A stretch of DNA of 21,359 nucleotides from a virus: IMG/VR virus record IMGVR_UViG_3300017751_000297, positions 1 to 21,359 of that record, one strand, 5' to 3'. Of this stretch, positions 4,297 through 20,278 are shown piece after piece. Positions within the stretch are counted from its first letter, which is position 1. Every line of letters starts with the position of its first letter. The notes beneath the pieces are model-generated. The model was not told the DNA's origin. It worked only from the letters and a program-made list of their open reading frames with translations, and searched no databases. The translations under genes and the position numbers were made by a program.

Positions 4297-4784
4297 GACG
4301 TTTTTTCTTTGTATCCTGCCTAACGTTTTTTGCGGTGAATCCTGCTTCGGCAGATATTCAACATCAAATTCAGTCCTCAATTCAGTTGACTGTAAATGGA
4401 GCAGCCTCCCAAGCAACAAGACTTCCTTCTACCTATAGCGTTTCTGGTTCTGGCATCAATCTGGACACTGTTGGTGGTCTTGGCACCCTTACTGCAGGTT
4501 CAGCTGTTGGTTACACTCCTGCCGCTTACAGCCTTGCTAATGATGGCGACAGCTTTAGCTTTGCAGAAACGTATATCGAAGGAGACGACGCACAAAGCGC
4601 CACCGAATTGACAGATGGCGCTACTGCTGGATTGCCTGCTTTCGGAAGTGTCACGACTACTGCTGCTGGTTCTGCAGGCGACCTTGCTGGAACGATCACA
4701 GGTGGTGGAGTTCTTGAATTGACTCCTGGCGGACCTGGCACAACAGCCACAGGCCAAGTAATTCTTTCAATTACTACGAACTAA
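4293..4784 (+). CDS. Secreted, beta-rich protein of unknown function
   Basis: This gene encodes 163 residues. A standard signal peptide (MRRFFFVSCLTFFAVNPASA, cut after ASA) precedes a mature chain rich in Thr, Ser, Gly and Ala with beta-strand spacing, including SVSGSGINLDTVGG, FSFAETYIEGDD and a C-terminal GQVILSITTN. There are no Cys residues in the mature part. It resembles, from memory, exported proteins encoded by marine cyanophages; virion decoration and host-surface roles are both possible. It is coupled to its neighbours on both sides by ATGA and TAATG overlaps. It shares the pattern F-x-F-x-E-T plus a following acidic or Gly turn with the next gene, so the two may be distant relatives. 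Confidence 0.78.
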   Translation: MRRFFFVSCLTFFAVNPASADIQHQIQSSIQLTVNGAASQATRLPSTYSVSGSGINLDTVGGLGTLTAGSAVGYTPAAYSLANDGDSFSFAETYIEGDDAQSATELTDGATAGLPAFGSVTTTAAGSAGDLAGTITGGGVLELTPGGPGTTATGQVILSITTN

Positions 4785-5179
4785 TGCGCTGGTTTTTGTT
4801 GCTGCTTGCTTTTGCTCCTGCAGCTAATGCAGTCCCTGTAATCCCAAATTTCACACAAGGTTCACTTACGTCCCACACAGAAACAACTAGCAAAGTTTCT
4901 GAAACAATCGTGAGCGATAATTATATGACTGGCTTTCAATATTCTGCGAGTGGCACCAATATCAAACCTGATGATTCTTCAATTAACCCCCCTACTTCTA
5001 GCACTGTTAACGGATGGACTACTTTGGGAGAACGGCCAAACTGGTCAATCGTGGATCAAGGGCAACCGTTTCAGTTCGTAGAAACTTTTCAAGGGCCGGG
5101 GCTATCGTCAAGGACGACAATCCAGAGAGAAACGGAGGTAAAAAGTATCGTCAACTCGGTTTCTGTCTTCTCTCAATAA
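4784..5179 (+). CDS. Secreted protein of unknown function
   Basis: This gene encodes 131 residues. The signal peptide MRWFLLLLAFAPAANA is followed by a Ser/Thr-rich chain of beta character with motifs GWTTLGERPNWSIVDQGQ and FQFVETFQGPG. It begins on the last base of the preceding stop codon (TAATG). The C-terminal half overlaps an alternative frame on the same strand from 5014, but this frame looks like the genuine one through 5179 because the FQFVETF block parallels FSFAETY in the upstream protein. It lacks Cys and membrane segments after the signal. Function is unknown; secretion is well supported. Confidence 0.75.
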   Translation: MRWFLLLLAFAPAANAVPVIPNFTQGSLTSHTETTSKVSETIVSDNYMTGFQYSASGTNIKPDDSSINPPTSSTVNGWTTLGERPNWSIVDQGQPFQFVETFQGPGLSSRTTIQRETEVKSIVNSVSVFSQ

Positions 5180-5826
5180 TCCTTTGCGCTCCAGTGCAGG
5201 CTGAGGGTATTGGAGGTATTTCTGCAACCGCATCTCCAACTGCCACATCGTCTGGGTCAGTAAGCAACCAAGCTGTGCAGATCTTGCAAGGAACAGCAGT
5301 AACCAACAGCTATGGCGGACAGATTCAGTGTCAAGGGCCAACACTAACGACTACGGGTTACGTCAACCGCGCCAAATCATTTGGTCTCCCGTATGAGCCC
5401 TTTTATTGGGATCCTGTTTATGACCTCAGCGATTTAGACGAAGACGGATTGCTTGATAATCCAGGCGACGTGCTGTTCTTTAAAAAAACTAGAACAGGGC
5501 AGAAGGATAACCACAACTGGAACGTTGGTTTATCAATACAAGCCACAATTCCGCTTGATGGTGGATTGCAAGAACGCTGTAAAACCGCAGTAGATACGCA
5601 GCTAAAATTGCAACAACAAGTCCTAGCCAATAGAAGATTGGATTTTGAAGTTTCGCGTCTGAAACATTGTGGAGAGCTGATGCTTAAAGGCATTCGTTTT
5701 GCGCCTAAGTCACCTTTTGCGAAGGTCTGCGCTGACGTAAAAATCAACTACCCAACGCCCCATACACATCCTATTTCCGTCGTGCCCGCTGCAGCTTCCT
5801 CCGCTGCCAAGAAGACTCAACCTTGA
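5014..5826 (+). CDS. Secreted protein of unknown function, start uncertain
   Basis: The open frame from the ATG at 5014 gives 270 residues, but the convincing protein begins near residue 43 with a signal-peptide-like segment (KKYRQLGFCLLSIILCAPVQA, cut after VQA). The mature part has GGISATASPTATSSGSVSNQ and YGGQIQCQGPTL, an acidic Asp-rich stretch (DLSDLDEDGLLDNPGD) that resembles a calcium-binding loop, a helical region with LKLQQQVLANRRLDFEVSRLKHCGE, and paired Cys residues. A strong GGAGGT sits at 5134-5139, where a ribosome-binding site would be needed, but no ATG, GTG or TTG lies in frame after it until 5194, inside the signal region. The first 40 residues overlap the previous gene and are probably not native. 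A hairpin terminator overlaps the stop. Secretion is likely; function is unknown. Confidence 0.72.
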   Translation: MDYFGRTAKLVNRGSRATVSVRRNFSRAGAIVKDDNPERNGGKKYRQLGFCLLSIILCAPVQAEGIGGISATASPTATSSGSVSNQAVQILQGTAVTNSYGGQIQCQGPTLTTTGYVNRAKSFGLPYEPFYWDPVYDLSDLDEDGLLDNPGDVLFFKKTRTGQKDNHNWNVGLSIQATIPLDGGLQERCKTAVDTQLKLQQQVLANRRLDFEVSRLKHCGELMLKGIRFAPKSPFAKVCADVKINYPTPHTHPISVVPAAASSAAKKTQP

Positions 5827-16209: not shown

Positions 16210-16550
16210 TACGGTTCAAATACTTCGCGGAATGTTGTTTGGATTGTGGCGCGGTTCAAATAAGGAATCGACTTACTCCACTGCTCACAAACAAATTTAG
16301 AGCTGCTGCCTTCACCGGGTGGTGTGAAATCGAAACTTGCGTTATCAGCAGCCCGTGCATCTAAAAACGTTTCGATAGTGTCGGAATCCGTCTCAGATAC
16401 CTCAAACGTCAGGTTGTAAGTCTTGGGGTTTTGGTTCAGCCCCATCGTCAATCTGGTTTCGTAGCCATCACCAAACTGCACTCTTCGCACCACAGGGGCG
16501 CTGCTCTTTTGCACGCCATAGGTCGGTGCAATTGAAGGAAAATTAGCCAT
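16209..16550 (-). CDS. M: Minor tail protein, lambda gpM family
   Basis: This gene encodes 113 residues, the normal length for the family. It has the typical pattern: an N-terminal YGVQKSSAPVVRRVQFGDGYE, then TRLTMGLNQNPKTYNLTFEV (about 34-53), an ETFLDARAAD helix, and a C-terminal FDFTPPGEGSSSKFVCEQW followed by NRATIQTTFREVFEP. gpM joins the tail tip complex between the tape measure and gpL. It starts on the stop of H (TAATG) and its stop overlaps the start of L, so all three are co-translated. Confidence 0.95.
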   Translation of the reverse strand: MANFPSIAPTYGVQKSSAPVVRRVQFGDGYETRLTMGLNQNPKTYNLTFEVSETDSDTIETFLDARAADNASFDFTPPGEGSSSKFVCEQWSKSIPYLNRATIQTTFREVFEP

Positions 16551-19252
16551 TAGCGGGTCAACAAGCCTCCAGGTCGTTTTTGCTTGATTAGTTCTTGCTG
16601 TACTGCAATGCCAATCGCCTTGCCAAGTTGCGCGGCTTGATCGCCATCACCTTCAACAGAAGAGCCAGAAGCATCAACGTTCACAGTCACACTAGCGCCA
16701 CCGCCCATTGCATTATTTGGAACGATATTACCTTGCGCTCCAGGGACAAACAACTCAGGACCACGCTCGCCAACCATATAAGGACGACCCGCTGCAACCG
16801 CCCCGCCACGCGCCATCCCAGGGATAGGCGGTAGTGGCGGTGGTGTTGGAGCTAACGGGCCAGGCTGTCCTGCATAACGGCCACCAGGAGCCATTAAGCC
16901 GCCAAACGGATTAAAGAAATTCATAAACAGGTTTACCGCCTGCATCTTGATCTGAGCTGCAATCATTTGTGCAGCCATATCCAAGAAGTGATCTGCTGTG
17001 CGTCGGAACAGGTTGGCCAACGCTTGCTGAGCAGTCATGCTTCCTGAAACAATCCCCTTGAATGACTCACTAAACGCTCCACCAAGTGTTTCAGCAAGTC
17101 CAGTTATTTGCTTTACCGGATCGTTTAAGTCGTTGAGCTGCTCCTGAAGCTTGACTAAATACGCTTGTAAACGTTCACGGTCACTCTTAGGGGCTAACGC
17201 TTCAAGAATTGCCCCTTCCGCGTCTTCTTTTTTGCCGGGAAGACTGTCAATTTTGTTTAAAAGGTCGGCTAAGTCTTTGTTTAACGCATCTAGTTCTGTG
17301 CCTGAAGCTCCTCTTGCTTTCGCTGTCAAAATAGCTGCTTTAGCAACTTCTAATTGCAGAACCAACTGCTCTTTCAACTTTTCAAAGTTACGGTCCAGTT
17401 CTACTTGTTGTTTTTTAAGTTCAATGGCCTGTTTAGCAGCAGCAGGCGTGCTGCCGTTGTTAATTAACTCGGCGTATTCACGCTCAAAGGCCATCTTGTC
17501 TTCATTTTTCTGAATAATTTTGTCCAGCTGGTCGTTAGCGCGATTAAAAGCTTTGTCAGCACGTTCCAGCTCACGATCTGCTCCCTTAATTGCTCTTTCA
17601 ATAGCTCGTTCTTTTTTCTTGGTTAGTCGCTCAGTTTCTTTACCTTGACGCTCTAACTCCCGCGTTTGCTTCTCTTGTTCACGCGTTGCAGCAGCTTGTA
17701 CTTGTCCGTCTAGACGACTCAAAGCAAGGGTTTTCTCCTTCTCTGCTAAGTCGCGTTCGCCGTCCGTTATACCCTCCTCACGCATTTTAGCTAAATATTC
17801 TTCTTGAATAATCCTTTGTCTAGTTATAACAACTGTATCGTCCAACAAATTATTACCAGCCTGTAAAGCCTCAATTTGAGCATCAACTATAAATCCTGCT
17901 TCTCTAGCAGCTGTATCTGCGTCTATTCTGCTTGTTATTTTTTCTGCAGACGCATCTTCGGTGGCAAGCCTTACGGATTCGGGGATTCCCGGCTCCCCAG
18001 TTGGCGCTCCAACAGCCTGCAAACCTTGGAAAGCTTTTTCCGTAATACCTAATCCCGGAAATAGATTAAAGGCACCTTGTTTTGCTCCTTGTATAAATAG
18101 TTTTCCTAGCGGGCTGTTTGCAAATTGATCAAATGCAGATTTTGTACCTAAAATAACACGAATAAGTCCCGTAAACACAGGCAATAGTTCGCTCTTAAGA
18201 GAACCAGTAACTTTTTCAATCTCGGCCTGTAGATTGTCAGTTTCTTCTTTGTAAGCAGCAAGTTTTGCAGCCCCATCAGGGCCTAAAACACGACTAATTT
18301 CTTCAAGAGCTATAGCGTAAGCATCAGCAAATAAACCTGCATCTTCGTAAGAATTTATTACACTTTTTGTAGAGTCAGAAACTTCATACCCAGCTTCTTC
18401 TAAACCGCTAAGAATACCTTGAGTAGATTCTAAACTATCTGCAAGAGACGTTAGTTGTGCCACATAAGTGTCTACAGCCCCGCCAAGTACCTGAAGCGCG
18501 ATGGAGGCTGGTCCAAAAGTAGACCCTGTAATAGCTCCGCCAAACGCACCACCAATCGCCATGCCTGGACCGCCGCCAAACAACAGTGGAAACGCACCGG
18601 CACTGACAGCCGCACCAGCTCTTTCCTTACCAGTAGCGTCCCCAAAAAGGCTGTTTTTACGCTTAGTAATTCTATTGTTTAATCGTCTGTCAAAATCTTT
18701 TAAAGCTTCAGCATTTGTAGTTTTAGCAGCATTCAATTCTGCGTCTGCTGCTTGATCAATTTGGGCTAATTTTTGTCTAAACACAACGTCATCGTTCGCA
18801 AGCTCTATTTTGGTTACATTGTTGTCGTGCGCCTTAGCAACCGAAGTTAGTTGGGTATAAGCAGCAAAAGCAGCTTTTGTAAGCTGCTCTACTTCCTGCA
18901 TTTGACGGATTCTTCCGCCAACAGGGCTTGCAGGGCCTGGACCTATTGGCCCCGCATACTGCTGCAAGCCCTGCATACGTTGCTGACGTTCCAGTCGTAC
19001 TCCCCTAAGCAAATCTGCGCGTCTAGCGCTTTCCGCTCTCTTTAGATCATTTGTAAGTCTTATCTGATCTTTTATTTGATCCTTTTCGTCTTGTCGTGCT
19101 TTTGATCTAGCCCTAAACCCAGATGGATCAAAAGTATCTAATTTTGATATTCTTTCAAGCGCTTGTTCAACAGCATCTAACTCTTTTTTAAGCGCTTTAA
19201 TAGTATTTAGGTTTTTTACCGCAAGCTGAATATCTACGTCGTAGGCGGCCAC
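16550..19252 (-). CDS. H: Tail tape measure protein (lambda gpH role)
   Basis: This gene encodes 900 residues from a GTG start. It reads as N-terminal coiled coil (about 15-80), a Gly/Ala-rich hydrophobic region (about 212-262, AGAAVSAGAFPLLFGGGPGM), a long charged coiled coil (about 520-700) and a C-terminal part with a Pro-rich stretch (GPLAPTPPPLPPIPG) and the common block GRPYMVGERGPELFVPGAQG. This order is typical of siphovirus tape measures, which fix tail length at about 0.15 nm per residue, so a tail of roughly 135 nm is expected. In lambda the protein is cut near the C-terminus during assembly; the block before GERGPELF could be such a region here, but this is inference. H follows the T frame by 30 bases and is coupled to M. 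Confidence 0.95.
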   Translation of the reverse strand: MAAYDVDIQLAVKNLNTIKALKKELDAVEQALERISKLDTFDPSGFRARSKARQDEKDQIKDQIRLTNDLKRAESARRADLLRGVRLERQQRMQGLQQYAGPIGPGPASPVGGRIRQMQEVEQLTKAAFAAYTQLTSVAKAHDNNVTKIELANDDVVFRQKLAQIDQAADAELNAAKTTNAEALKDFDRRLNNRITKRKNSLFGDATGKERAGAAVSAGAFPLLFGGGPGMAIGGAFGGAITGSTFGPASIALQVLGGAVDTYVAQLTSLADSLESTQGILSGLEEAGYEVSDSTKSVINSYEDAGLFADAYAIALEEISRVLGPDGAAKLAAYKEETDNLQAEIEKVTGSLKSELLPVFTGLIRVILGTKSAFDQFANSPLGKLFIQGAKQGAFNLFPGLGITEKAFQGLQAVGAPTGEPGIPESVRLATEDASAEKITSRIDADTAAREAGFIVDAQIEALQAGNNLLDDTVVITRQRIIQEEYLAKMREEGITDGERDLAEKEKTLALSRLDGQVQAAATREQEKQTRELERQGKETERLTKKKERAIERAIKGADRELERADKAFNRANDQLDKIIQKNEDKMAFEREYAELINNGSTPAAAKQAIELKKQQVELDRNFEKLKEQLVLQLEVAKAAILTAKARGASGTELDALNKDLADLLNKIDSLPGKKEDAEGAILEALAPKSDRERLQAYLVKLQEQLNDLNDPVKQITGLAETLGGAFSESFKGIVSGSMTAQQALANLFRRTADHFLDMAAQMIAAQIKMQAVNLFMNFFNPFGGLMAPGGRYAGQPGPLAPTPPPLPPIPGMARGGAVAAGRPYMVGERGPELFVPGAQGNIVPNNAMGGGASVTVNVDASGSSVEGDGDQAAQLGKAIGIAVQQELIKQKRPGGLLTR

Positions 19253-19282: not shown

Positions 19283-19480
19283 CTACCGTGCGCCCATTGA
19301 TCGTGCTCTGGAGCCGGTCTTAGCGTTTTGAACGGCTTTTTCTTGCTGCTCGGTGTGCAGCTCAAAGTAAGCGGCCCAGCCAACCAGCTCTTCTTGTGTC
19401 AGGTGTTGGGTTAGCTGAGCGACCGTGGTTCCTAGTTCCTTGGCAAGAAAATAGATGAAGTACCAATCGCTATTAGCTTT
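19283..19480 (-). CDS. T: Tail chaperone extension (T part of GT), reached by +1 frameshift
   Basis: This is a 64-codon frame without its own start codon. It reads ANSDWYFIYFLAKELGTT, then LTQEELVGWAAYFELH, and ends GSRARSMGAR. It has the WxF and WAAYFEL features of gpT-type extensions that bind the tape measure. Its only entry is from G: the frame opens at the AAA of 19480-19478 and the in-frame stop TGA lies directly before it, while G stops at 19473. The two frames overlap for only nine bases (AAA AGC TAA), within which AAA-A allows the lysyl-tRNA to re-pair one base forward. The fusion would be G residues 1-115 plus 64 residues, about 179 in all. The frame is too short and starts too irregularly to be found by ordinary gene callers. 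Confidence 0.85.
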   Translation of the reverse strand, partial: KANSDWYFIYFLAKELGTTVAQLTQHLTQEELVGWAAYFELHTEQQEKAVQNAKTGSRARSMGAR

Positions 19481-19823
19481 TCAAGGCTGCTTTCGCGTCC
19501 TCCACCTTGTTTTCTGCGCCAGAAGACAGCATCGCTAGCTGAATGTCTTGCAGCACTGCAGCTTCAACAGCGTTCTTAAGCACTGCTTTTTCGCCGTCTT
19601 GGAACAGGCGCTTGCCATCTGCGTCTAGTGCTTTTTCAATCAGCATTCCGAGCGCAAAATCGTTGGCGTCGTCAGAGCCTGCTTTTTTCTGAATGGCTTC
19701 GCGTTCAGCGATGGTAAGAGGGTGCCAATAAATCTCTAACGCAGTTTCGTCGCCATCTTTGACTTCGTGCTTGTATAGCTGACTGACGCCAAACTTATTA
19801 CGGAGTAACTCAGAGGCACGCAT
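19473..19823 (-). CDS. G: Tail assembly chaperone, lambda gpG role
   Basis: This gene encodes 116 residues, mostly helical, acidic in the middle. It has the usual position just before the tape measure and a pattern seen in siphovirus chaperones (EIYWHPLTIAEREAIQKKAG, then LGMLIEKALDADGKRLF). It ends ALKS followed by two stops in a row (TAA TAG). In lambda, gpG and the longer gpGT coat the tape measure before the tube polymerises and are absent from the mature virion. The 26 bases before the ATG contain no clear ribosome-binding site. It follows the tail terminator gene directly, with no tail tube gene in between. Confidence 0.88.
   Translation of the reverse strand: MRASELLRNKFGVSQLYKHEVKDGDETALEIYWHPLTIAEREAIQKKAGSDDANDFALGMLIEKALDADGKRLFQDGEKAVLKNAVEAAVLQDIQLAMLSSGAENKVEDAKAALKS
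19477..19481 (-). promoter_or_regulatory. Probable +1 ribosomal frameshift site
   Basis: The minus-strand sequence TTG AAA AGC TAA TAG ends G. A slip of one base forward on AAA-A (19481-19478) moves the ribosome into the T frame (AAA GCT AAT). No other re-pairing in the nine-base overlap works, and a -1 shift would not reach the T frame. A GGTGGAGG lies about 17 bases upstream, probably too far to help. The doubled stop may slow the ribosome. Confidence 0.68.
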
Positions 19824-19849
19824 ACAGTAGTAGCATTTATCTGAATATA

Positions 19850-20278
19850 CTACACAACTGCTGTGAATTGGCAGGAGATAATGCCAATAAAGTGCGAACG
19901 GTCTTCTAACTCCAACGGAGTTGGGCCGGAAACGTCGGATACACGCGGAGCTACATTAAAAGTATCGCTATAGCCCGAAGCGTTGACTGAAGTAAGCCCA
20001 TCAATAACCGCTTCGCTTATGGATGACAACACAGCCGTACCAGCAGATTTAGGTACATAAACGTTGCACTGGATAACCCCAGAGTAGTAATCCTGAGCAG
20101 CCCCTTGGTTTTGTAATGTAGAGCGGTTGAAGTTTATGGTCATCAAAATGTATTTTTTAGTCTTCCCAGGTACGGTGTAGCGAACGTTGTCGTACACCAT
20201 AAGCACTGTGGCGTCAGCAGCTGAAACAGCGTCAGTAACTGCTTTTTCAAAAGCAGCGCGGGCGTTTACAAGTGTCAT
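19850..20278 (-). CDS. U: Tail terminator protein, lambda gpU role (DUF4128-like)
   Basis: This gene encodes 142 residues. The pattern of a helix (VNARAAFEKAVTDAV), TVLMVYDNVRYTVPGK, KYILMTINFNRS, then a central beta block GVIQCNVYVPKSAGT, a helix AVLSSISEAVIDGL and a C-terminal HFIGIISCQF is typical of tail terminators of the DUF4128 type. Rings of this protein cap the tail tube at its full length and form the joining surface for the head. It starts 3 bases after the stop of the upstream gene. Confidence 0.82.
   Translation of the reverse strand: MTLVNARAAFEKAVTDAVSAADATVLMVYDNVRYTVPGKTKKYILMTINFNRSTLQNQGAAQDYYSGVIQCNVYVPKSAGTAVLSSISEAVIDGLTSVNASGYSDTFNVAPRVSDVSGPTPLELEDRSHFIGIISCQFTAVV

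Follow-up and report, generated by a model that had tools for sequence, protein, structure and literature searches.

The window, that is, the whole stretch of 21,359 nucleotides analysed here (a 21.4 kb virus record consisting of one metagenomic contig), very probably carries a lambda-type pair of tail assembly chaperones, G and GT, the longer of which is produced by programmed +1 ribosomal frameshifting. As far as comparisons of related loci can tell, the same +1 slip at AAA-AGC appears to yield GT in large groups of phages from aquatic habitats, most of them cyanobacterial.

The G/GT pair adjoins the tape measure gene on the upstream side, within a tail cluster of which the rest is also lambda-like, with M-, L-, K-, I- and J-like proteins encoded after the tape measure gene. 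The features of the locus are as follows.

19850-20278, minus strand: tail terminator gene, upstream of G (PF13554, E 0.0013; phrog_179, E 7e-11)
19473-19823, minus strand: G, coding for a G-like tail assembly chaperone of 116 amino acids (116 codons, zero frame; 3' end GCC TTG AAA AGC TAA TAG)
19483-19481, minus strand: TGA in the T frame, abutting the slip site on its upstream side
19481-19476, minus strand: putative slip site AAA AGC, the slip AAA being 19481-19479, followed by AGC
19470-19475, minus strand: G stop TAA followed by TAG, neither the position nor the identity of which is kept in relatives
19286-19480, minus strand: T extension, 65 codons in the +1 frame relative to G, with the stop TAG at 19285-19283
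16550-19252, minus strand: tape measure gene, downstream of T (phrog_1538, E 4e-14)

The first-pass annotation of this DNA had described T as a frame without a start codon that follows G in the +1 frame between a tail terminator and a tape measure gene, and both the frame and the family matches of the two neighbours agree with that description. In the window, the T frame contains no ATG, GTG or TTG except for one ATG near its end, and, as had also been stated, it shares only AAA AGC TAA with G. Since the TGA at 19483-19481 closes the T frame, no earlier entry into T is possible. A +1 step after AAA leads to a predicted GT of 179 residues (...ALK-ANSDWYFIYFLAKELGTTVAQL... in the translation of the window), and we infer that a protein of this length is made from G and T. 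The order of terminator, G, T and tape measure is the same in a contig from a Prochlorococcus single cell (L282).

According to the mechanism that we propose, most ribosomes would read through to the G stop and release G. In a fraction of the ribosomes, when AAA occupies the P site and AGC the A site, peptidyl tRNA-Lys(UUU) would slide one base forward, where it can pair perfectly with AAA again; GCU would be decoded next, and translation of T would yield the 179-residue GT (...ALK-ANSDWYF...). By analogy with lambda, many copies of G and a few of GT may coat the tape measure protein, with the T part recruiting the tail tube subunits. The comparisons below establish the frame structure, the lack of a start codon, the conservation of frame relation and slip codons, the selection on T, and the chaperone family and fold; that ribosomes do the shifting, where precisely and how often they do so, and what the two products do in tail assembly is inferred.

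We scanned IMG/VR using as queries G and T of the window and G of AG-345-A17, KBS-S-2A, HTVC202P and a freshwater relative; seven reference G proteins jointly aligned were too divergent to serve as a query. The scans gave >400 loci, to which one contig from a Prochlorococcus single cell was added, and a script read G, T, their frame relation and the codons preceding the G stop, which left 322 distinct G-T regions. Relative to G, T is offset by +1 in 228 of these regions and by -1 in 94, counts that come from related sequences rather than independent events, almost all of the -1 loci belonging to two clades. G and T were fused in frame in none of the 322 regions. Three clades make up the +1 loci, namely W (the window's), AG (that of AG-345-A17) and F (freshwater and KBS-like +1 loci), and T is in the +1 frame at all W-clade and AG-clade loci with both genes readable. 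The phage collection searched held no isolated, annotated phage with the +1 form, the known cultured relatives being -1. T is unannotated in reference genomes such as that of KBS-S-2A and in the AG-345-A17 contig; thus, pipelines that consider -1 heptamers only miss half of the gene pair in abundant marine phages.

Among 107 distinct W-clade loci, median dN/dS values were 0.055 for G, 0.11 for the T frame, and 1.5 and 2.0 when the T region was read in its two remaining frames; T is 65 codons long, counted from the slip, in 104 of the 107. Judged by these substitution rates, T is a genuine protein, which purifying selection preserves in its own frame. A frame that was broken in relatives, or a base gained or lost in sequencing, had been named in the first-pass annotation as grounds for giving up the reading, and neither is borne out. 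The window as a lone metagenomic contig might well invite the suspicion that the layout reflects a mistake in sequencing or assembly, or the decay of a second gene; nevertheless, the same frame relation recurs in 228 distinct loci from many metagenomes and in single-cell contigs (the virus contig AG-345-A17 and the Prochlorococcus contig), and T is under purifying selection. We regard the probability of such an artefact as practically negligible.

G matched phrog_20784 (E 5e-25) and, more weakly, phrog_344 (tail assembly chaperone; E 5e-4), and T matched phrog_26456 (E 4e-9) and phrog_337 (tail protein; E 8e-5). Fused GT aligned, unbroken across the junction, to phrog_16513 (tail assembly chaperone; residues 33-154 vs 37-155 of 160, E 2.8e-6), to which G alone gave E 0.011, and phrog_14766 spans the junction in four different GT proteins (residues 52-152). 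Pfam and NCBIfam searches with G, T and GT yielded nothing that reached curated cut-offs or gathering scores, and a PDB sequence search with the GT profile yielded no match. An AlphaFold model of G alone, built from a G-only alignment (mean pLDDT 78), found its best solved match in 2OB9, the tail assembly chaperone of HK97 (Foldseek probability 1.00, E 0.006; VIA Z 8.6, rmsd 4.2 over 96 residues) and scored high against YqbN (3KLU) as well; the sequence identity of G to both is ~10%, and the match is a statement on the fold. The modelled fold places G in the tail assembly chaperone superfamily.

In lambda-like clusters, the major tail tube gene sits between the tail terminator and G. No such gene was found between the two in the window (19823-20278) or in the Prochlorococcus contig (L282:5540-5995), and KBS-S-2A has a 252-residue gene at this place. 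The tube protein may be encoded elsewhere, or the 142-aa tail terminator protein may serve both roles. Outside the tail cluster, we noticed that two genes on the plus strand of the window, 4784-5179 (phrog_650) and 5014-5826 (phrog_848), overlap by 166 nt (5014-5179) in different frames. Each of them matches its family across almost the full length, and the overlap may be genuine dual coding.

The codons at the end of G separate the two directions of shift. All 228 +1 loci have an in-phase AAA AGN 1-8 codons before the G stop (AGC in 215, AGT in 9, AGA in 2 and AGG in 2), and AAA A is invariant among them, so that the P codon is able to re-pair in the +1 frame throughout. The motif occurs near the end of G in 0 of the 94 -1 loci, 91 of which carry A AAA AAC or A AAA AAA there, and A AAA AAN, the classical -1 heptamer, was found near the G stop in 0 of the 228 +1 loci. 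Elsewhere within the same G genes, AAA AGN accounts for 12 of 24,134 codon pairs. Without exception, AAA encodes the slip lysine in the three +1 clades, with most other conserved lysine columns mixing AAA and AAG. In the AG clade (33% GC), AGC makes up 6% of the serine codons in the loci, yet it is found at the slip site in 66 of 71. A pause at a rare (hungry) codon was considered as a general cause and rejected, as AGC is rare in the AG clade and not in the window's clade.

A T-frame stop directly abuts the slip AAA in 140 of the 228 +1 loci. As the T frame is closed right before AAA, the shift is possible only at AAA or AGC in the shortest overlaps, and of these two codons only AAA can re-pair one base on; AAA-A as the sole place of re-pairing, previously read from the window alone, therefore holds. 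The A-site codon, AGC, is a sense codon. The G stop follows the slip AAA at a distance of 1-8 codons, is TAA, TGA or TAG and is frequently single in the +1 relatives, and the doubled stop of the window, which had been remarked on together with the shift, is incidental and no part of the signal. The first-pass annotation had also called a +1 shift unusual and had suggested a comparison of G/T junctions in relatives. The shift does differ from the -1 heptamer, but it is a trait of whole clades rather than a peculiarity of the window phage, with close homologues using a -1 heptamer; AAAA and the +1 relation are kept in 228 of 228 +1 loci, and the 94 other related loci are -1.

The frame of T would also be reached by a -2 shift, with one extra residue in the product. 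Phage Mu uses a -2 shift for its tail chaperone gene pair, and far-upstream Shine-Dalgarno elements are usually tied to backward shifts (PMC5009743). Nevertheless, the codon before AAA varies among TTG, CTC, TTA, ATG, CTG, CTT, TCC, GCC, AGC, TCT, ATC, CTA and ACG, and its last two bases vary freely in the +1 loci (TG, TC, TA, TT, CC, GC and CG). Because of this variation, re-pairing two bases back is ruled out for both tRNA-Lys and tRNA-Ser, and the invariant AAAA is what forward slippage of tRNA-Lys requires; a -2 shift is thus unsupported, and we consider it very unlikely. RNA polymerase, which can slip on A-rich runs, might instead produce an mRNA that fuses G and T. The window offers just four A, whereas the runs described are longer (A_n, n > 7; PMC3711429), and polymerase needs no AGC, yet the AGC codon that follows is conserved. 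Transcriptional slippage is extremely unlikely on these grounds, and a +1 slip of the ribosome is the reading that we retain.

Two further features lie upstream of the slip site.

19505-19498, minus strand: Shine-Dalgarno-like element GTGGAGGA, 16 nt upstream of the slip AAA, each base fixed in 107 W-clade relatives
19489-19496, minus strand: candidate mini hairpin GC-GAAA-GC, with the counterpart GGC-UAAA-GCC at the shared position in the sister clade

The element GTGGAGGA is fixed at the level of codons (GTG, GAG), while in conserved columns of the W clade the most frequent codon has an average share of 0.68. The element is predicted to pair with the 3' end of 16S rRNA at -9.3 kcal/mol, as against -0.9 on average over the remainder of G, and 16 nt separate its own 3' end from the slip codon in all 107 W-clade loci. 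The strongest Shine-Dalgarno-like element is 22-23 nt from the slip in the AG clade, mostly 16 or 19 nt in the freshwater clade and mostly 6-10 nt in the -1 KBS clade. For +1 shifts, Shine-Dalgarno stimulators are described 3 nt away, and for -1 shifts, 9-14 nt away (Atkins et al. review, PMC5009743), and the 16-23 nt of the +1 clades fall outside both windows. The conserved element is probably a stimulator or a pause element; at this distance, we conjecture, it might act through a pause or through a hybrid that is stretched until it comes apart close to the slip site.

A strong and conserved Shine-Dalgarno-like sequence close upstream could be taken to indicate that T is translated independently, either by ribosomes that re-initiate once they have passed the G stop or from a start codon of a non-standard kind. 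At the usual spacing, however, the element points to T-frame codons without a start. A start codon for T in relatives, named in the first-pass annotation as grounds against frameshifting, was looked for, and no ATG, GTG or TTG is conserved. Moreover, the T frame is closed directly before AAA in the 140 loci mentioned above, and fused GT aligns unbroken to chaperone families. Independent translation of T is therefore most unlikely, and we continue to favour its synthesis as part of GT by frameshifting.

The mini hairpin (GC-GAAA-GC / GGC-UAAA-GCC) upstream of the slip is a possible, weak candidate, its sequence being largely forced by conserved Ala-Lys-Ala. In the AG clade, codon -3 before the slip is GCC in 71 of 71 (e.g., L157 and L282), though GCC represents ~5% of alanine codons there, and this GCC can form GGC-UAAA-GCC with GAG GCT directly upstream of the slip site. 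A conserved downstream stem-loop or pseudoknot received no support in any of the three clades (alifold vs column-shuffled controls).

When mapped onto a maximum-likelihood tree built from 79 G proteins, the direction of shift (+1 or -1) requires four changes, at least two of which fall on well supported branches; the tree has few alignment columns, and the very long branches (MED4-184 and S-2L) are unsure. Both directions occur in the KBS-S-2A-like clade: some members have T in the -1 frame and A AAA AAC, others have it in the +1 frame and ATG AAA AGC. Within this clade, L265, L266, L268 and L274 differ in direction from L244-L264, a natural experiment. T is in the -1 frame and A AAA AAN is absent near the G stop in L162, L163 (MED4-184, MED4-117) and L159 (S-2L). 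The tree and the sequences suggest that homologous chaperones have changed the direction of their frameshift at least twice. We are moderately inclined to a more general proposal: that AAA-AGC and, 16-23 nt upstream of it, a Shine-Dalgarno-like element jointly constitute a general, undescribed bacterial-type +1 signal in large aquatic phage clades, and that the direction flipped at least twice between A AAA AAC (-1) and AAA AGC (+1), the two hence being interchangeable in evolution if the G:GT ratio is kept.

Xu, Hendrix and Duda are said to have described, in 2004, a conserved set of G/GT tail assembly chaperones. The present pair resembles that of phage lambda in its position before the tape measure gene, in having a short G and a longer GT formed by a late frameshift near the G stop, and in the homology of G and T to chaperone families. 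The two differ in that the shift here is +1 at AAA-AGC, with a Shine-Dalgarno-like element 16-23 nt upstream and no downstream structure found, and is -1 on an X XXY YYZ heptamer in lambda. The cyanophages KBS-S-2A and S-H1 and the pelagiphages HTVC202P and HTVC026P have homologous G and/or T in the same order, with T unannotated or listed as a stray ORF; these phages differ in having T in the -1 frame and A AAA AAC, the classical heptamer.

Forward shifts are established for prfB (release factor 2), which shifts +1 at CUU UGA C with a Shine-Dalgarno sequence 3 nt away, and for structural genes of Listeria phage PSA and of SPP1 at CCC UGA and CCC UAA. These cases from bacteria and phages share with ours the P-site tRNA that slips one base forward. 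They mostly have a stop codon in the A site, whereas here the A site holds the sense codon AGC, the P site holds AAA and the position of the stop is free. Tailed phages use -1, -2 and +1 shifts for their tail chaperones, and +1 is very likely in the haloarchaeal virus HSTV-2 (PMC5009743). HSTV-2 and phage Mu (-2) thus likewise have tail chaperone pairs with shifts other than -1 according to that review; they involve unrelated hosts and phages, and the likeness is drawn from the review's description.

The G/GT principle itself has long been known, and +1 was noted before for HSTV-2. The PRFect paper states that forward shifts lack a known general motif. The literature that we searched, which covered few subscription papers, names no AAA-AGC slip site in phages, and the absence of a report is no proof of novelty. 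What appears to be new is AAA-AGC as a widely conserved +1 slip site of phages, the repeated change of direction (two times or more) among homologous chaperones, and a Shine-Dalgarno-like element that is fixed by nucleotide 16-23 nt upstream, outside the spacings described. The conserved position of this element outside both spacing windows poses a testable problem, and the motif in 228 distinct loci, set beside homologous -1 controls, provides a natural comparison of forward and backward slippage on lysine codons.
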